This document shows, one piece after another, positions 9,185-59,331 of a DNA stretch of 64,000 nucleotides. Under the pieces are notes generated by a model. That model had not been told where the DNA came from and made no database searches. It worked only from the letters and a program-made list of their open reading frames with translations. Origin of the DNA: Natronorubrum aibiense (GTDB taxonomy: Archaea; Halobacteriota; Halobacteria; Halobacteriales; Natrialbaceae). The stretch spans positions 1,178,001 to 1,242,000 of the forward strand of contig NZ_CP045488.1 in NCBI RefSeq assembly GCF_009392895.1, given 5' to 3'. The stretch's first letter is position 1; each line of letters opens with the position of its first letter. A program made the position numbers and the translations under genes.

Positions 9185-9275
9185 CGAGGGACACGCCACC
9201 GAACTCTACGAGGGCCGCGGAACCTTCGGTTCCGCCTGATCACGAGAGACGCAGTCTCTCGAAGGCGTTCCCTCG
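9185..9275. repeat. Tandem-hairpin element, copy A
   Basis: Two perfect 8-bp hairpins with 3-base loops: GCGGAACC/GGTTCCGC at 9217-9235 and CGAGAGAC/GTCTCTCG at 9243-9261, separated by CTGATCA. They are enclosed by an outer inverted repeat, CGAGGGACACGCC at 9185-9197 with GGCGTTCCCTCG at 9264-9275. It lies just after the 3' end of the polymerase gene. Three other sites in the window have the same layout with different stem sequences. Confidence 0.75.
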
Positions 9276-9282
9276 AGACAAG

Positions 9283-12200
9283 CTACATGAAATCCTCGAT
9301 ACCTGACTGCTTGTTTTTGTCGTTCTCGAAGATGCTCTCTAAGGATTTCTCGAGGACCTCGAGGCGCTGTTTCGTGTAATCGCGGCAGTCGTACTCCTCG
9401 GCGACCTGAATCGCCGTTTGCATGTACTTGTTCACCGATCCCTGGTGGACGGTGAGGTTGACCCGACCACCGCACTCGCGGCAGTCGCCGGTCAACGGCA
9501 TCCGGCGGAACTTCTCGCCACAGTCGAGACAGCGGGTTTCCTGTCGCGAGAACGCCCGGAGGTTGCCGATCAGATCCGGCAGGAAGTGGCCTTCGATGAC
9601 CCGTTCGGCGACGTCAGTCTCGTCGACTGACTCGAGTTTGCGCGAGAGCTCGAGCTGGGCGTCCATCTTGTCCATCATCGAGCCCAACGTCTTGTACGCC
9701 GAGAGGTCCGGCCCCATCGCGATGTTGGTGGTGTCGTGAGTGTGGTCGAAGCCGGTGTACTCCAGATCGGTGCCGAGGTTTGCCTCGGCGATCTCGACGT
9801 CGACGTCCTCGGGGTCGGCCTGCTCGCGGGTCGCGAGATAGAACTCGCGGGGGTACTGGGAGACGACGTCCATGTTGTGGGCCTCGTCGTCGATCTCGGA
9901 GGGATCGATGCGGGAGGACATGACCAGCGGAGCGTCCATCTTCCCGCCGCGCTGGTCGGGGAGGAACGACTTACTGAAGTTGAGCAGTCCGTCGAGAAGG
10001 AGCATGACGCAGTCTTCGTCACCGTCGCACTGACCGACGTACAGATCGTTGGCAACCAGTGTATTCGTCTCCTCGACAGTGAGACAGTAGGTGTATTCGA
10101 CGTCACTCTCGACGATCTCGACGGAAACGACTTCGTCGAGCCACGTATCGCCGCCGTCAGCGAAAAGGCGCTGCGAGCGGAGTTCGGTCGTCTCAAGGAC
10201 ATCGGTAATCGTCTCCTGTTTCCGTTCGAGATGGAACCCGATACGTTCAGCGAACCGAGCAGCGTTCTCGGACGTGATTTTGAGAACCCACGATTCGAAT
10301 TCGGGGACTGGTTCGTCATCACCGTAGAACTCGGCGACGGCTCCATTGGACGGACGCCGCGTTTCGCGGTAGGTTTTCGCTGCGATACCGAAACGTTTCA
10401 GCGCAGCAACGAGGTCGGTTGCAAGTTCGTCACTGATTGTGTGTGCTCGAACCTCGATTCGTTCGCTCGACGTACTCCCGTCTCCGCTGAAGTACGCGGC
10501 CAAGAATGCGCGCAGCTGGGAGCGAGAGCTATCGAGAACGGAATCCGGAATCCGCTTCGTTTCCGCGGTCGCACCGAGGTCGAGCACGTCGGCGAACAGC
10601 GCCGAGACGAGACGGCTCGAGACGGTTACTTTCCACTCGTTCTCTTCGAACGCGGCGATCGAGAGCGCGTCGGTGAACACATCGATGATGTCATCTCGAG
10701 CCGCTCTGTCGGGCGTACAGATCGTCGTCTGATAGAACGATCCGTCTTCACGACGAGTGAAACCTTCAGAAGCGTAGTATCCGAGCAGCGTCGCGACGGA
10801 ATCGTCGATCTCGAACTGTCGTTCGACAGCTGCGGTGTCGCGTTTCATCCCGAGGGTAACGTCGTCCGGAATGCGGTCAAGCAGTTCCGCAGCGTCGAAG
10901 AAAGTGAGAAGCGAACCGACTGGAACACTGTCTCGGTTCACCCAGTTGTAGACCGTCGACTGAGAAACTCCCAGTCGTTCCGCAACCGGTTTGAGATACG
11001 CCTGATTCGGCGTTGCGTCGTCGAGTAAGTCCTTGATTTGTTCGGAGCCCAGCTCGCGGATAACGAGCGAGTCGTTCGGAATGGCATCCGCCTCGATAAA
11101 CGCTTTCAGCAGATCGATCGATTTCGTCGTCCCCTCGAAGTCGATCGATTTCGGACTCGGGAGTTCGTCGCCAGCCGAAAGTTCGCGAGCGTCGACGGAC
11201 TCCAAGCCTGCCGGCGTCCATCGACGGAACGTGTGATCCTGAGTTACGGTTAGCGTTCGACCACTCCGTGTTTCGATCCGAACGAGATGATCGGGGGCCA
11301 GATGTTTCGAAACAGTTTCAACGGGCTGTTCGACGGGCGTTCCATCGGCAGTGACTGATGGGACGCAGAGTCCGTCGACGTCCTGAACGAGCGTTCCGAA
11401 ATCGTCTTCTTCGGGATCAGTCAAGCGCTCTTCGACGATCGTTTCGATCGATTCGTAACCCCAGTCACCGTTGTGGTTCTGGGACCAGAGTTTCGTCTCT
11501 GGGTGGAAGCAGTTCCGGCGTTTCGCGGCGTGAAAGTACGGATGAGCGTATCCGACTGCGGCACTCGTAAAACCAATCACTCGACCGACAGTTGCTGCCG
11601 ACGTGTGCGGTGCCATCCCGAAGACGAGTTCGCCCACGAGATCCTGTCGGTCTTCGAACTCGTAGAACCGCTCGAGGCCGTAGTACTGCTCGAGCAAGTC
11701 GTCGATGAAGTCGGCGGTCTGGAGCATATGCTCGGCAGCACCGTCGGAGAGGACGATGTCCTGAACTTTGAGTTCGACCAGCTGGTCCTCGTGGGTCAGC
11801 GGGTCGCCGTGGATGTCTTCCTCGTAGCCCAGCGCTCGGAGTTGGCCGACCTCGATGTCGAGTTCGCTCGCCCGGACCGACGTGACCGGGAGGTCGGTCA
11901 TGTCGTAGCGGACAGTGCCGTCTTTGAACGCCGAGACGTCGTGTTTCGCCCGTAGAACCCCTTTTTCGATCGGTTCGGGGATCTTCGTCGCCGACGACAG
12001 TCCCTTGACGCCTTTCAGGATCTCGAAGGCGTTCTCGCGTTCGCCGACCGACTCGAGGGCGTCGCGGTACTCCTCGTTGATGTCGATCTCGCGGGGTTCG
12101 ACGCAGGTGGCCTCGCGTTCACAGCGATCACACTCGACGCGGCCGGCCTCGTCGGGTTCGATGCGCTGGTCGCAGTCGGGACAGCGGTAGTCGGGTTTCG

Positions 12201-14415
12201 TCCGCGTCTCGCAGGTCGGACAGCGGTTCTTGAACGTCTCCGTCTCACAGGTCGGACAGCGCTGGCGCCCGATCTGGAGTTCGACGACGCCGGGCGTATC
12301 CGACATCGTCTCGGCGTGTTTAGCCGCGTTGGCGACGTTGCGCTGTGCGCCGCCGGCTTCACCAATGGGAAACAGCGTGTGAACCGGCGGGCTGAGGTCA
12401 CGCCGTTCGGACTTCTCTGGACGGCCCATTCGGTTCCCGATTCGGGTCGGCGCACGTTCCCGGACGGCAAACGGCGCGACCTCGTTGACGGCTTCGATGG
12501 CGTTGTCGCCCTCCTCCTCGTGGCCCCACGTGCGAGCGCGCTCGGAGAGGTCGTCGTCGGACCAGGTGCGCTCGAGGTCGATGGCCGACTCCCGTCCGCG
12601 TCCGTCGGGATCCAATGCAGCGCCGTCGGCGACCGCTCGGCGAAGCTCACAACCCACCGTGCGAGCGAAGGGGCGCCAGTCGTCGATCTCGATCCGCTCC
12701 TCGCTTTCGCGCTGGCGGTGTTCGATGATGATCGTCTCGAGGGCGTCCCGGACATCGTCGGTGTACTCGAGGACGAGCGTGTCGTCGCCGTCGGCGTCGC
12801 CCTCGATCCGACCGTCCGCGACCGCGTCGGCGAGGGCACAGAACGCCTCGACCGAGAGGTCGTGCCAGAGGTAGGTGTACTCAGGATGCAGCGGCGCGTC
12901 GTACTCGAGCGCCCACTCGAGCGCTTCGTCGGGTTCGGGGAACTCGAGGTCGATCCGCGGGTCGTCTTCGAAGGCCTGTACGTCGACGCCGGCGGCCGCT
13001 ACGTCCTGCACCCACCACTCGTAGGTGTAGGCAGCGGGTGCGAGCGGGTGGTTGTTCTCGACGAATTCGCCGTAGTTGACCAGGTACTCGCCGAGGTCGA
13101 GTATCTTTTCGACGCCGTTTCTGATCTCGAGGGCGTCCTCGGGGTCGTCGATCCGGCGCACGTCGCCGTTTGCCAGTTTGACGGTTGGGCCCTCGATGGA
13201 GTCGACGGGGACGACGCCCGCCGCTTTTCCGGGGCGTTCGGTTTTGATCTGGGTACCCGTCGCGAGGAAGTCGTCGACCAGATGCATCGCGGCGGGGTGG
13301 ACGCCAGCGGTCGCAAAGCCGTGATTGCGCGCGCGCCCGTAACGCAGTCGAAACCCGCCCTTCGCGCAGGGGTGCGAGAAGACGGGGCGGCCGGCGATCA
13401 GGTCCCGGAGGTACTTCGTCGACTCCTCGACGCGTGGGGGGCCGTCGGGACCATCGGTGTCAGCATCGTCGCCGTCGTCTACGGAATCGTTTCCATCGGT
13501 GTCTGCGTCTTCCTCGTCACTGTCTCCCTCGTCGTCCGCGTCGCTCTGCTCGTCTTCCTCATCCGCGGCGTCGTCGTAGTAGGTGCCGTCGATGAGGTCC
13601 TGGAGCCACGGCCAGTCGACCTCGTCGAGATTCCGGGTGTAGCGCTGGATCTTCGGCGCTTTCAGTGCGATCCCCTCCGCGAGGACCAGACACATGCCAC
13701 CACGGGCGCTGTTGGTGTCGACCCGCTCGAGATCTCGGAAGCCCGAGACCTCTTCGTCGCCGGTCGCCTCGCCGTCCAGCATGATCGGCATGTGTTTCGC
13801 GATGAACTTCGTCTCCTTGTCCTTCGGCGTGTACTGGAGCCCGGTTTCCTTGTCGTACAGCGAAATCTCCTCGGCGTAGCGTTCGATCTCCTCGTCGCGG
13901 GCGTCGTAGGACTCGAGGCCGACGAGCGCGCGGGTGTAGTCGGCGACCAGTACGGACAGCGCCTGTGCGGTCCCGCCGGCCGAGCGGATCGGGCCAGCGT
14001 AGTAGACGTTGACGAACTCGGTTCCGTCGCCGTTTTCCAGGATCTCGACCCGGTCGATCCCCTCGATGGGCGCGGCGACGACCCCCTCGGTCAGCAAGGC
14101 GACTGCAGTGCGGACTGCCCCTTCGACCTTGCCGGCTTTCGTCTCGTAGTCGCCGACGCGACCTTCCGCGAAGTCCTTCGCGAGTTCGAGTGCGGCCTCC
14201 TCGCGGCTCATCTCGCCTTCGAGTTCGCGGACGCGTTCGGCGACGCCATCGATGCCCAAAATATTCTCGACGCGGTCGGCCATGTCCTGGGCGACCGGAA
14301 TCTCGACTTCGGGTTTCGGGTCGCCGCCGCGTTGTTTGGCCCGTTCGGCGACGTCGAACGCGTCGTCTAACTGGGACTCGAGTCGCTGGAAGTACCGTGT
14401 GTCTTCCTCCCGCAT
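9283..14415 (-). CDS. polC: DNA polymerase D large (catalytic) subunit DP2, with intein
   Basis: 1710 codons: 1216 of host protein plus a 494-residue intein at residues 969-1462. DP2 is the catalytic chain of the archaeal replicative polymerase PolD. The N-terminus REEDTRYFQRLESQLDDAFDVAERA is typical. Residues about 283-327 are an Asp/Glu-rich insertion, a halophilic feature. A multi-cysteine zinc region (CPTCETET...CPTCETRT...CPDCDQ...CDRCERE) lies before the catalytic NCDGDEDC motif, whose Asp residues bind the metals; the intein sits between the Asn and the Cys of that motif. A CLDCGEKF...CRECGG zinc motif is near the C-terminus. It starts one base after the stop of the PPC-domain gene, so it is probably cotranscribed with it. 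Confidence 0.97.
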   Translation of the reverse strand: MREEDTRYFQRLESQLDDAFDVAERAKQRGGDPKPEVEIPVAQDMADRVENILGIDGVAERVRELEGEMSREEAALELAKDFAEGRVGDYETKAGKVEGAVRTAVALLTEGVVAAPIEGIDRVEILENGDGTEFVNVYYAGPIRSAGGTAQALSVLVADYTRALVGLESYDARDEEIERYAEEISLYDKETGLQYTPKDKETKFIAKHMPIMLDGEATGDEEVSGFRDLERVDTNSARGGMCLVLAEGIALKAPKIQRYTRNLDEVDWPWLQDLIDGTYYDDAADEEDEQSDADDEGDSDEEDADTDGNDSVDDGDDADTDGPDGPPRVEESTKYLRDLIAGRPVFSHPCAKGGFRLRYGRARNHGFATAGVHPAAMHLVDDFLATGTQIKTERPGKAAGVVPVDSIEGPTVKLANGDVRRIDDPEDALEIRNGVEKILDLGEYLVNYGEFVENNHPLAPAAYTYEWWVQDVAAAGVDVQAFEDDPRIDLEFPEPDEALEWALEYDAPLHPEYTYLWHDLSVEAFCALADAVADGRIEGDADGDDTLVLEYTDDVRDALETIIIEHRQRESEERIEIDDWRPFARTVGCELRRAVADGAALDPDGRGRESAIDLERTWSDDDLSERARTWGHEEEGDNAIEAVNEVAPFAVRERAPTRIGNRMGRPEKSERRDLSPPVHTLFPIGEAGGAQRNVANAAKHAETMSDTPGVVELQIGRQRCPTCETETFKNRCPTCETRTKPDYRCPDCDQRIEPDEAGRVECDRCEREATCVEPREIDINEEYRDALESVGERENAFEILKGVKGLSSATKIPEPIEKGVLRAKHDVSAFKDGTVRYDMTDLPVTSVRASELDIEVGQLRALGYEEDIHGDPLTHEDQLVELKVQDIVLSDGAAEHMLQTADFIDDLLEQYYGLERFYEFEDRQDLVGELVFGMAPHTSAATVGRVIGFTSAAVGYAHPYFHAAKRRNCFHPETKLWSQNHNGDWGYESIETIVEERLTDPEEDDFGTLVQDVDGLCVPSVTADGTPVEQPVETVSKHLAPDHLVRIETRSGRTLTVTQDHTFRRWTPAGLESVDARELSAGDELPSPKSIDFEGTTKSIDLLKAFIEADAIPNDSLVIRELGSEQIKDLLDDATPNQAYLKPVAERLGVSQSTVYNWVNRDSVPVGSLLTFFDAAELLDRIPDDVTLGMKRDTAAVERQFEIDDSVATLLGYYASEGFTRREDGSFYQTTICTPDRAARDDIIDVFTDALSIAAFEENEWKVTVSSRLVSALFADVLDLGATAETKRIPDSVLDSSRSQLRAFLAAYFSGDGSTSSERIEVRAHTISDELATDLVAALKRFGIAAKTYRETRRPSNGAVAEFYGDDEPVPEFESWVLKITSENAARFAERIGFHLERKQETITDVLETTELRSQRLFADGGDTWLDEVVSVEIVESDVEYTYCLTVEETNTLVANDLYVGQCDGDEDCVMLLLDGLLNFSKSFLPDQRGGKMDAPLVMSSRIDPSEIDDEAHNMDVVSQYPREFYLATREQADPEDVDVEIAEANLGTDLEYTGFDHTHDTTNIAMGPDLSAYKTLGSMMDKMDAQLELSRKLESVDETDVAERVIEGHFLPDLIGNLRAFSRQETRCLDCGEKFRRMPLTGDCRECGGRVNLTVHQGSVNKYMQTAIQVAEEYDCRDYTKQRLEVLEKSLESIFENDKNKQSGIEDFM
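10030..11511 (-). mobile_element. Intein in polC with LAGLIDADG homing endonuclease
   Basis: 494 codons in frame inside polC. The first residue is Cys (CFHPETKLW) and the +1 residue of the C-extein is Cys, the nucleophiles for protein splicing. The C-terminal block is LVANDLYVGQ, ending in Gln instead of the usual Asn and lacking the usual penultimate His; a Gln end is also known for the Pyrococcus PolII intein. LLGYYASEG (about intein residue 239) and LAAYFSGDG (about 334) are the two dodecapeptide motifs, each keeping its acidic residue. A helix-turn-helix segment (RLGVSQSTVYNWVN, about residue 174) precedes them. The insertion site is the polymerase active-site motif. Confidence 0.95.
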
Positions 14416-14416
14416 G

Positions 14417-14881
14417 TCAGAGCCAGAGATCGAGTTCGGTGGTCTCGTCGTACGCCCGCTCTAACCCGTCTTCGAAGACGCGCATGTGGACTTCACCGGC
14501 CCAGACCGTCGCCTCGTTCAGGTGGCCCGCGACGGCGGTGCCCTCGTCGTCCGAGAGGACGACGTGCGTGTGTGCGAATCGGTCGTACTGGCGAGACTCC
14601 GTCTCGCTGTCCTCCGAGTGTGACTCGGAGATTTCCAGCCACGAGACGTTGCCCACGCAGCTGGCGACCTCGAGCGGTTCGTCGAACTCGATCGGATAGT
14701 ACTCGCAGTCGTCCTGATCGTAAAACCAGAGTTCGGCGTCTTGGACCGCACCGAGAGCGGTAAACCAGGCGGCATCGGCCTCGACCGCGTCGGCGAGGGA
14801 CTCGATCTCGGCCCGCCAGTCGGCACCGGTCTCGAGGCGGGCGACGTACTCGTCCGTGGTCTCGACGGCGCGATAGTTCAT
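14417..14881 (-). CDS. PPC (DUF296)-domain DNA-binding protein
   Basis: 154 residues from the ATG at 14881 (MNYRAVETTDEYVARLETG). The pattern ADWRAEIESLADAVEADAAWFTALGAVQDAELWFYD and later HTHVVLSDDEGTAVAGHLNEATVWAGEVHMRVF matches archaeal PPC/AF0104-type proteins; the HxH near residue 100 is conserved in them. Such proteins form trimers and some bind DNA. The gene ends one base before the polC start codon, an arrangement that implies cotranscription and perhaps coupled translation with the replicative polymerase. Confidence 0.85.
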   Translation of the reverse strand: MNYRAVETTDEYVARLETGADWRAEIESLADAVEADAAWFTALGAVQDAELWFYDQDDCEYYPIEFDEPLEVASCVGNVSWLEISESHSEDSETESRQYDRFAHTHVVLSDDEGTAVAGHLNEATVWAGEVHMRVFEDGLERAYDETTELDLWL

Positions 14882-26640: not shown

Positions 26641-27350
26641 CCGTGGGAGTCTCGGCTATGCTGATTCCCCGGAGGCAACATTCCCGTTGTGGTGGACGGT
26701 ACTCGGGTCTGTGCGCTGTTCTTTGGGACTTTCGCGAGGGTGTGGTGTCCCCGACCAATCGTGGTCGTCCCACTCGAACCGCACGGGCCGTGCCATCGGC
26801 CTGACTGCCTGTTCTGTATGCCGCTCCAGGAACGTTTCTGACGCTGTAAGGTCGGCGTGACCTTCGAACCCACACACGGACAGGTGAGCATGTCTCGATT
26901 CCGTGTCGTTCTATCCGTACCGCTACACTGCGGGCATTCTTGACTCGTCCACGCTTCCGACCGAACTTCGATCGTAATCCCGTACTCTTCGGCGGTACAG
27001 GCCAGTCGCTCGGTGAACTGTTTGAACGCCCAGAAGTTGTGTGTCTTGGCGTTGGTTTCGACCGACCAGTGCGTGTCCAGCACGTCGGTCAATCCACCGA
27101 TATACACCGTATCCACACCATCTTCGTACAGGCGCTCCAGCAGGTCACGACACAGTGATTCTTGAGCGTGATCGCGGCGACGAGTTCGTTTGCGGTACAG
27201 CCGCCGGATACGCTTGCTGCTGTATCGACCTTCCGGCAGCTTGGACTGCAACTGGGCTATCTCTCGTGTCATCTCACGGAAACGGTCGAACAGATCTCGA
27301 CCTTCGTATAGGTATTGTTCACCGGTCATGGTGGTACAGGCGACGAGATT

Positions 27351-27918
27351 ATATGCGGAACAGGCGCAATACCACGGCCTGAAGGCCGTGGATACGCGCC
27401 GTCACTCGATGATGCCACCCACTGACAGAAGCATAGCCCGAGTTTCCAATCCTAACGTTCAAATCACAAGAAACCCTACATTATGGCAAGGTCAGGTCGG
27501 AACGGAGCGGATTCCGAACGACCTTCGGAGGTCGTTCGAGAGAGCGTCGCTCTCTCGTGATGACGAAAATCTTTAATTTTCGAACCACGGTCAACCTGCC
27601 AATCCAATGAGACAGTATCCGAAACGCCAACGCGGTGAACGCGAATCCTTGAAGGATTCGGCTCGTGCCCGTCGGTTGAGCAAGCCCGATGATACCTCCG
27701 AGTCCGTCGACGCGTCAGCGACTTCCTGCTGGCAAAAACAACAGCTGGGTGTCAACGATGCTGAGGATAGGAGTAACGGCCACTTGGCATGGCCAGACAG
27801 CCACCGACCACGACGACTGGGTTAGACGCGAACTCCCGAAAAGTGGCGGAGTCATGGTTGTAAACCTGAAACTCCCACCGCTCGGGATTCCTGCGTCTTC
27901 AGGCGCAGGAGGATGTCA
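27351..27918 (+). mobile_element. Non-autonomous IS1341/IS605-type insertion inside tnpB
   Basis: A segment of about 565 bases that separates the two halves of tnpB. Its right edge on the plus strand is an inverted copy of the usual right end: stem CCTGCGTC/GGCGCAGG (27890-27909) with a TTCA loop, then GGATGTCA. Near the left edge is a perfect hairpin CCACGGCC/GGCCGTGG (27372-27391) with a TGAA loop. No transposase frame remains; a 72-codon frame at 27607-27825 is not protein-like. It contains several further hairpins, including tandem-hairpin copy B. It looks like a MITE made of transposon ends and decayed filler. Confidence 0.6.
27515..27590. repeat. Tandem-hairpin element, copy B
   Basis: Three stacked palindromes: CGAACGACCT/AGGTCGTTCG (27515-27538), then CGAGAGAGC/GCTCTCTCG with a 3-base loop (27537-27557), the spacer TGATGA, and CGAAAAT/ATTTTCG (27564-27582). 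The last two with their spacer match the layout of copies A, C and D. A further hairpin CGAATCC/GGATTCG lies at 27642-27660. Confidence 0.65.
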
Positions 27919-28568
27919 ATTGCACCAATATCCAGAGCGGCCTTCTCAGAAGCCAGTGGAGTGTCCCGTGCATCGTCAGAAACAGTCACGGGTTGCGAAG
28001 CTCGGAAGGTGCTATCCGTCTTGTCGTACCACAGGTCCAACCGACCCTGTTTGTCGTAGTCGGGCCAATTCGGGTTGCCGACAATTTCCAGTCGGAGCCG
28101 CCCGGTGTGGTTGTGTCGGGTTTTCAACTCGCTCCCTACAAGGATCTCAAGTCGAGAGCGAACGCCCCATTCGATGGTGTACGACGTGTTTCGAATGACG
28201 GTATGCAGTTTGCGTCCATCGTCTTTGTTCCCCCAAAACCCGGGTGGTTCGGGGTTTTCAGTGACCGATGTGTTCGACTCGTCGTGATACTTCTTCTTGT
28301 TCTCGAAGAAGCCGCGCCACGCTTCGCTGTTCTTGCGAATTACTTGCTGGGCGGTGGATGCACCAAGCACGCCTTTGTACTTGCCTTCGAGTTGGCCTGT
28401 ATCGGCGTCCCAGACGTCACCATCGAAGCCGTCCTCGTCGTTGTACCGCATGAGGCGTTCGTAGTTAACTTCGTTCCAGAGAGCAGCGGAAGCGTCCAAC
28501 AGGTCCCGGAGCAGTTGCTCTCCACTATCGGAGAGCGGTCGCACGGCAAACGTGTTAGTCCGCTTCAT

Positions 28569-46914: not shown

Positions 46915-47045
46915 TGCGGTATGGTTGTTGTTACCATAGAACATCAGTCTTTTTCAGATATGTGTGAATTATAATTTTGGAGAGCGTACGTGGTAGAACG
47001 AAAGTATGCGGCGGATTCACAGAATAATCGAGGCGGATGCCACGG

Positions 47046-47103
47046 AGTCGTCCGGAAATCGAAGATTTCCGTGATCACGAGAATCGGAGATTCTCGAACG
47101 ACT
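47046..47103. repeat. Tandem-hairpin element, copy C
   Basis: The clearest copy. An outer stem AGTCGT/ACGACT (47046-47051 and 47098-47103) encloses hairpin CGGAAATC/GATTTCCG (47053-47071, loop GAA), the spacer TGATCA, and hairpin CGAGAATC/GATTCTCG (47078-47096, loop GGA). It lies in the divergent region between the amidohydrolase and alcohol dehydrogenase genes, about 80 bases before the latter, so it could affect either promoter. Confidence 0.8.
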
Positions 47104-47181
47104 TGACCCCGGGGCAGTTGACACGAGACGATAGTTGGGGGGAAGTTTTTCTTTGCGTGTGCTGAACTGTGACTTGGTACC

Positions 47182-54858: not shown

Positions 54859-55016
54859 TTCTATTGTCGGGCTACCGTCATATGATTATTTGGTTAGGGT
54901 GCGCGATTTTGTGGATAACCTAATCTCGTGTCGGCTGTATCCCCGCCCTACTGCGCTACTCAGTCGCTTCGCTCCCTGCGTTGCTCCTTGAGGACGGGGA
55001 CTTAGCCTCGCAAAAG

Positions 55017-58006: not shown

Positions 58007-58082
58007 TGCCAGTCAGTCGTCGTCTCCAGAACCTTCGGTTCTGGCGGGCTGCACGAGACTTTCAGTCTCGTGAACGCTGGCA
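58007..58082. repeat. Tandem-hairpin element, copy D
   Basis: An outer pair TGCCAG/CTGGCA (58007-58012 and 58077-58082) encloses CCAGAACC/GGTTCTGG (58026-58044, loop TTC), the spacer CGGGCTG, and CACGAGACT/AGTCTCGTG (58052-58072, loop TTC). It lies within the last codons of tnpB. Confidence 0.65.
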
Positions 58083-59331
58083 GAGGGTTTCGACTCTTGA
58101 AACGGTGTGAGTATCATCTGCGAGGGTGTCTCGCTCTGCTCACACTGAGCCGTGGCGGTGTCACAACCGCTCCCGTCCTGTGGCGAGTCATCGACTACCT
58201 GTTTCACTGGTAGGCTCTCTCCCCACGGGTCTACGCGACGTGCGATGTTCGCACTCGCGTTAATATCCGCTTGAAACATCGATACGTGACACTCTGGGTT
58301 CTTGTACTTGAACTCGGCCTGTCGAGGTCGATACCCGATGTGCTTGCACGAGTGACACGTTTTCGAGGTGTATTGCGGGTGGACGTATCGAACTGGAATA
58401 CCTGCGTCCTTCGCCTTGTCCTCGATGCGACCTTGAAGACGAGCGAAGGCCCACGAGTGCAGGCGGCGGTTCATGTACTTCCCGTAGTCCAGCGACTCGC
58501 GGATGTACGCCAAATCCTCCATCACGATGACTGGATTTTCAAACTGACGTGCATAGTCCACGGACTCACGAGACGCCTTCTCGATGATGTCTGTGAGGCG
58601 ATTCTGGTAGTACGAGGAGCGTTCTTCGACGCGCCACTCCGAAGCGTCTCACTCTTGGAGTCGCTTGAGCGTCGTGAACATCTCTTTGCGGATTCGCTTG
58701 GCTTCTTTCCCGTTGAGTAACAGTGGTTTCGTGTTGGAGGGCACAGCCCGTAACCAACATCGACTCACCAATATCGAATCCAACCCGAGTCGGATTCTCG
58801 GGGGGTTTCAGAGGTGTCGTTGATTTCGTATTCGACGGTGACGTGAAGCGTCCACGTCTTTCGGTGTTTCTGCAAGCGAAGTTCGCCCACCTTCGTACTC
58901 GACTCGTCATCAAGTAGGTGGTCCCACAGTTCCTCTTGTTCAGGGTTCAGTCGGAGTGGAATCCAGAAGTTGGTTCCGCGACCGGGTTGGGGAACGTTCC
59001 AGCAGATTTCGTACTCGCGCGACGGGTCGCGGTCGAACTTCCCGGCTCGATTCACGAATCGGAGCGGGTGTTCGTCATCCAACTCCTGTGCGTTGTACGT
59101 CTTGTGGAGTTTGAGGACGTGGGATTTGAGGGCGTCTTTCGCTTGGTACGGTAGGTTGTACGGTGTCACCACATCGTTCGTGGCGCTCATCGTCGTACAG
59201 TCTTGCTCAAAGGCGTCGTCAAGTGCGTCACGGTATTCGGACAGCGTTTGCTGGAGGCGTTGCTCTTTGCACCGCGTGGGCGGTGCGAGCGTGGCTTCCA
59301 GCGTCTTATTCGCCGTCTGGGTTGTTGACAT
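58013..59331 (-). pseudogene. tnpB: tnpB with frameshifts
   Basis: The first part (59331 to about 58790) goes from MSTTQTANKTLEATLAPPTR to VEYEINDTSETPRES. A shift then gives NPTRVGFDIGESMLVTGCALQ, the RuvC-I motif, another shift gives an ERSQANPQRDVHDAQ-like garble, and the third part (58561 to 58013) has NPVIVMEDLAYIRESLDYGKYMNRRLH with the RuvC-II Glu, a zinc ribbon (CHSC...) and FQADINASANIARR, the RuvC-III region. At least two frameshifts separate these. It cannot yield a complete TnpB. All catalytic motifs still exist at the DNA level, so the decay is recent. Confidence 0.85.

Follow-up and report, generated by a model that had tools for sequence, protein, structure and literature searches.

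What keeps two adjacent hairpins perfectly paired when the sequences of their stems differ from copy to copy? The question is raised by four sites (A to D) in 64,000 nt of Natronorubrum aibiense DNA (contig NZ_CP045488.1, positions 1,178,001-1,242,000, forward strand), the whole of which we call the window. A preliminary description had reported two adjacent perfect hairpins at each site, and we recovered all four pairs in their places, at 9217-9261 (A), 27537-27582 (B), 47053-47096 (C) and 58026-58072 (D). C was predicted to fold as a three-way junction, and A, B and D as paired hairpins. Using stems of at least 7 bp, the window contains five tandem pairs, compared to a mean of 0.17 per Markov shuffle, and with stems of at least 8 bp it contains three, compared to none in the shuffles; the stems are neither restricted to coding sequence nor as rare as in this control. 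The fifth pair, at 14591-14630 (GCGAGAC-tcc-GTCTCGC / CTCCGAGT-gtg-ACTCGGAG), falls outside the main family defined below.

One family at A, B and C, another at D

Sites A, B and C match a single covariance model (R2, with 56 positions and 21 pairs, built on 18 sequences, including two that we shortened manually). D is not matched, so the view that the four sites form one family had to be given up. We have defined the unit as TCGTN-H1-TGATSA-H2-AACSA, 54-62 bp long, and the parts common to A, B and C are GTCGTN, TGATSA and AACSAC, set around variable stems. These stems had been called unrelated between copies, which is true of their middles, while nearly all arms start with CGRRA or CGARA and end in C.

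In the host genome we counted 33 occurrences of the pattern TGATSACGAR-N9-17-YTCG, compared to one for the reversed control. When the longer TGATSACGAR-N9-17-YTCGAACSAC was searched across GTDB genomes, almost all of the matches listed came from Halobacteria. Searching haloarchaeal genomes with the covariance model, a check that the preliminary description had suggested, located the family in most of the class: R2 matches (E 1e-5) were found in at least 330 of 391 Halobacteria genomes and at least 79 of 86 genera, with up to 14 candidates scored per genome, so that the lack of a match in any one genome is uncertain. Outside the class, weak matches were seen in five genomes of a phylum sample (G439, G448, G455, G544 and G546). 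The 30 plasmid records with a match are all haloarchaeal, and no copy of the family was found in 50,697 phage records. Carriers scored in depth showed 10 to 85 matches per genome, counting both strands, and the model searches placed the family at about 27 places in the host genome. The sequence sets were collected with the motif itself, and the family statistics therefore describe copies like those sought.

No autonomous version with a gene between the two halves was present in 1.3 Mb of fetched DNA, where the only longer variants were four-hairpin forms of about 112 bp (L090, L113, L142, L145 and L160). These read hairpin 1, TGACTGAG, a hairpin, CGATGTCCG, a hairpin, CTTGATGA, the last hairpin and AACCA, and could be either two nested units or the ancestor of the two-hairpin form. 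The one in L145 occupies the same target as B. Besides, two Natrinema-like genomes have the same copy of the family (L009:2456-2517 and L089) directly after a tRNA gene and followed by a sequence resembling a tRNA 3' end.

Regarding D, its sequence indicates a second tandem-hairpin family, distinct from that of A, B and C. It lies at 58020-58076 (edges approximate, no strand assigned) in the tail of a broken tnpB, whose C-terminal part (58013-58561, minus strand) matches PF07282, the TNB domain, with E 4e-16. Two tnpB homologues, L163 and L172, lack D at the same place, and relatives with 93-97% identity were found in Natronosalvus and Natrononativus plasmids. A further 55 unique tandem hairpins off the main pattern, splitting into several groups, were detected in 1.31 Mb of fetched haloarchaeal DNA, compared to none in 157 kb of shuffled DNA. 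Two inserts of some 60 bp in a single tnpB frame of L061, at 186-240 and 1369-1420, are other tandem hairpins, each belonging to a different family.

Insertion sites and hosts

We tested the edges of the unit by removing TCGT...ACSA in a script, joining G to C and comparing the flanks with those of empty relatives. The rejoined flanks matched without gaps. For B, the empty allele is in the same genome (L003, with flanks 97.3% and 98.8% identical on the two sides) and its breakpoints are exact, L003 3819/3820 corresponding to window 27531/27588; further empty pairings include L057, L060, and L189 against L190. At a tnpA locus, the 855-column alignment of L306 and L280 contains 54 gap positions and some six mismatches. 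The element thus alternates between presence and absence in otherwise near-identical DNA, placed exactly between G and C. In the compared cases the target was G^C and nothing was duplicated.

The unit at C, a type I module on the plus strand, extends from 47048 to 47101 between G47047 and C47102, with edges taken from the empty alleles of relatives (R2 match E 1.5e-18). From the tandem-hairpin scan, it contains hairpin 1 (CGGAAATC-GAA-GATTTCCG, 47053-47071) and hairpin 2 (CGAGAATC-GGA-GATTCTCG, 47078-47096), both on the plus strand, on either side of the junction TGATCA (47072-47077, plus strand), whose C covaries with the G of AACGAC according to the covariation analysis. C had been considered free between genes; comparison of relatives places it in the palindrome, the only one, of a 102-bp solo IS200/IS605-type PATE (palindrome-associated transposable element; 47021-47122, plus strand) with the left flank TTCAC (47016-47020) and the right end GTTGAC. 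Relatives of this palindrome without the module have a CTTGA loop instead.

B (27532-27587, plus strand, R2 match E 1e-13) is a type II module, with TGATGA and AACCAC. Its host is a multicopy, non-coding PATE of 571 bp (27349-27919, plus strand), and four other copies of this PATE (L004, L006, L008 and L011), at 98.4-98.6% identity, all contain the module. A (9214-9266, plus strand, E 6.2e-7) is a diverged type I module with an outer GCC/GGC pair, located between the ends of an abhydrolase gene and a DP2 gene, both named from domain matches. The latter, encoding the DNA polymerase II large subunit, spans 9283-14415 (1710 codons) and presents intein and LAGLIDADG domain matches. An empty target repeat was also seen at window 54934-55006, and L212 has a module at the same sequence (93% over 73 bases).

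Altogether we distinguished 59 target clusters. Many are near-terminal palindromes of PATEs or IS605 elements and others are not, including sites outside IS605 ends. Other hosts are the left and right end palindromes of tnpB and tnpA elements (L064, L079, L235 and L236), and the module is also present within tnpB frames (L163 and L252) and in tnpA. Where it sits in an end palindrome of an IS200/IS605 element or a PATE, it occupies the loop. The link to IS605/tnpB elements that had been proposed earlier is real. In L252 (1500-1560) the tnpB frame enters the module, which encodes the last TnpB residues. L200, L203 and L223 share one target with type I modules in opposite orientations, as judged by stem order. 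Insertion always into hairpin loops found no support: stems of at least 6 bp surround the junction in 22% of target clusters and in 11% of control GC sites, and IS605 palindromes account for most of this excess.

In 17 tnpA sequences of the MGEKRSNH subfamily, two of which (L190 and L307) look like one copy, the module separates EILS from LHISPDH, immediately ahead of the HUH motif. Once the 54 bp are removed, most of these read as intact genes, with the exceptions of L230 and L316 (upstream), L310, and L098 (a stop far downstream), while L312 and L313 have a second insert with a stop. Pairwise dN/dS among five interrupted genes was 0.05-0.16 at dS values of 0.33-0.68. The module occupies 18 codons and in most copies its TGA is in frame; TGA has become GGA in five (L308, L310, L312, L313 and L316), and the module of L310 is 53 bp and out of frame. 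The TGA copies are possibly kept intact by recombination with intact genes, by mobilization in trans or by readthrough. Translational bypass was rejected on inspection, as matching take-off and landing codons are absent. On the tree, where many supports are weak, interrupted tnpA genes are scattered among uninterrupted ones. Stems and orientation are identical in all of them, which suggests that one allele spread by recombination or was repeatedly lost. On this sequence evidence, recombinational spread of one allele would fit the 17 genes better than repeated insertion, and independent insertions from random donors are unlikely. A second insertion hot spot lies between CPK and YRH (L225, L312 and L313), in frame in L225 (SSKAKLCVPRGIEDPAQ). 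Many tnpA matches start near residue 22.

Constraint on the folded module

The fold and the junction bases are conserved while the stems vary freely among 143 distinct modules. In 150 unique modules, the S of TGATSA and the S of AACSAC were G-C in 97, C-G in 48 and other combinations in 5, with a mutual information of 0.82, the highest among column pairs outside the stems. Both junction types occur within the same PATE subfamilies, so the junction has switched more than once, although exchange of whole modules is possible; the covariation may come partly from two lineages swapped as whole units. The two stems of one copy, besides, are never alike: the same first six bases were observed in none, when shuffling predicts 10.7 cases for type II and 7.0 for type I. 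Recombinational loss of equal-stem copies could add to this avoidance.

Loops are constrained as well. GNA or TNC accounts for 68% of them, compared to 12% of random C-NNN-G and 34% of other hairpins in the same DNA, and the closing pair is C-G in 145 of 145. C-GNA-G loops form unusually stable DNA mini-hairpins, and the GCGAAGC motif is in use in the literature. The GNA side falls on either strand about equally often and stem mismatches show no G-U bias toward one strand, which argues for DNA rather than RNA. In tnpA, at one orthologous place, the arms are unchanged but the loops alternate, GGA with TCC and GAA with TTC, and such flips fit the expected effect of template switching in hairpins. 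With stem avoidance, junction covariation, DNA-type triloops and more than 100 distinct copies, the constraint on structure asserted in the preliminary description is well supported. Among the bases it had offered for this constraint (an RNA, a cruciform or a single-strand transposase substrate), a mobile DNA element is better supported than an RNA.

One could argue that the module is a passive passenger, inserted once, long ago, in an IS200/IS605 palindrome, carried by its host ever since and never mobile, with perfect hairpins produced by template switching only. Many copies do sit in related palindromes with the same position and orientation, and the loop flips at fixed arms are what template switching would leave. 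However, the spread over 59 target clusters, some outside IS605 ends, and the exact empty alleles in several unrelated hosts do not suit a single immobile insertion, and template switching leaves the unequal stems and conserved junctions unexplained. We consider this reading unlikely.

A classical MITE, whose ends TCGTTCGA/TCGAACGA would be read by a double-strand transposase or a serine or tyrosine recombinase while the hairpins are incidental, seems quite improbable. The terminal inverted repeats of type I are perfect and the target G^C is itself symmetric, but the absence of target duplication is unlike most DDE transposases, type II ends are mismatched at the third base and the hairpin constraints would be left unexplained.

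A structured RNA, either a free small RNA folded as a three-way junction or a part of the TnpB guide RNA (omega RNA), is also quite improbable: the perfect stems with covarying arms, the covarying junction pair and the position of the L064 and L079 copies, which directly follow tnpB in the right-end palindrome, the place at which omega RNAs of haloarchaea terminate (PMC12558985), would suit it, but the window has no Rfam match (one copy gave a chance-level match only), neither strand has an excess of G-U among the stem mismatches, GNA and TNC loops are equally frequent without strand preference, type I reads the same on both strands, and copies are found inside tnpA, inside tnpB and away from tnpB. 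Some of these copies do resemble the omega RNA right-end scaffold (PMC12558985) in occupying the palindrome beside tnpB; unlike the scaffold, the module is dispensable, as shown by empty right-end palindromes, and occurs in tnpA, at left ends and without tnpB.

Two other RNA candidates were rejected. On inspection, the two ends are on a single side of the TCGT/ACGA helix, which leaves no two-bulge geometry for an archaeal bulge-helix-bulge intron. As for a box C/D RNA, the likeness of TGATGA to a C box is not shared by type I, with its TGATCA, and a D box is lacking in the two-hairpin form.

A miniature mobile element and its relatives

According to these results, Halobacteria probably have a miniature mobile DNA element, non-autonomous and recognized as folded DNA, of which A, B and C are copies. 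Recognition of a fold, extruded or single-stranded, is suggested by triloops of the DNA-stabilizing C-GNA-G kind on one strand or the other. Selection on folding would keep the stems perfect, aided by template switching, which would also flip the loops. The element would be cut and joined by an enzyme acting in trans, with an IS200/IS605-type HUH (Y1) transposase as the likeliest candidate, this being the least certain step. HUH Y1 genes were found in 18 of 20 carriers and in 7 of 20 non-carriers (Fisher p 0.0008), leaving two carriers without a match; this co-occurrence is suggestive of a Y1 mobilizer and is confounded by IS load.

Bases located 5' of the hairpin select the cut site by pairing with it in IS200/IS605 and REP systems (PMC8266576). 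At the right end, the covarying junction pair shows this guide geometry, and the S of TGATSA with the S of AACSA may act like the guide/cut-site pairing of those systems. At the left end and in the target, the comparison of targets revealed no matching tetranucleotide, G^C alone being constant, and the guide-pairing mechanism therefore stays hypothetical. The fixed site of 4-5 bases expected of IS200/IS605 transposases is likewise missing from the targets.

The closest known systems are small mobile DNAs. The small mobile repeats (SMRs, of the types SMR-A and SMR-B) of Haloquadratum walsbyi are about 110 or 80 bp long, the shortest being 80 bp, with inverted ends and no target duplication; copies of one type are mostly more than 95% identical, and SMR-A inserts in near-terminal palindromes of PATEs and IS605 elements (PMC3119063). 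The two-hairpin unit is, like an SMR, too short for a transposase gene, and in its empty alleles G adjoins C without any duplication; many of its copies, as with SMR-A, occupy near-terminal palindromes of PATEs or IS605 elements. Its terminal inverted repeats are perfect in type I and mismatched in type II. Unlike SMRs, it measures 54-62 bp and has copy-specific stems. Compared by published description, HqIRS elements included, the unit works like Haloquadratum SMRs, yet is shorter and has free stems. The four-hairpin form of about 112 bp may be a link to the SMRs. An SMR-like inactivator of IS605 (PMC3119063) is disfavoured, given that module-bearing PATEs keep multiplying and the interrupted tnpA genes are otherwise intact. 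PATEs themselves have IS605-type ends and no target duplication (PMC3119063); they are the hosts of B and C, and the module is an insert in them that is found elsewhere too.

REPs and REPINs, whose enzymes are RAYT or TnpA-REP, have ties to the HUH Y1 enzymes known from IS200/IS605 (PMC3116915, PMC8266576, PMC3733652). The unit shares with them a miniature mobile DNA built of hairpins, some of those in REPs having 8 bp and 3-base loops (PMC3116915, PMC8266576, PMC3733652). It differs in lacking the GTAG tag, its foot being GTCGTN, and where a REPIN consists of two inverted REPs, it has two different hairpins side by side, a precise G^C site and an archaeal host. REPs with a CGTC tag and a CCA tail, whose ends are vaguely like those of the unit, are reported in bacteria only (PMC3116915, PMC8266576, PMC3733652).

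The two-hairpin insertion is present in most haloarchaea, lies mostly within other transposons and seems to have gone unrecognized so far. More tentatively, it could be a class-wide mobile DNA, among the smallest known, whose identity is its fold: stems free as long as they pair, remain unequal and have DNA-stable triloops, a covarying base pair that would connect the junction with the right end and guide cutting and, in tnpA, an in-frame segment of 18 codons whose TGA would have become a glycine codon more than once. Dyall-Smith et al. (2011, PMC3119063) called the mobilization of SMRs enigmatic, and the element supplies a testable substrate for this question, as a defined 54-bp unit whose ends and empty alleles are known, with over 100 natural stem variants and a base pair expected to decide cutting. 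In tnpA it has entered a transposase gene which otherwise stays intact and, being conserved in its shape, it may be an archaeal counterpart of the bacterial REPINs.
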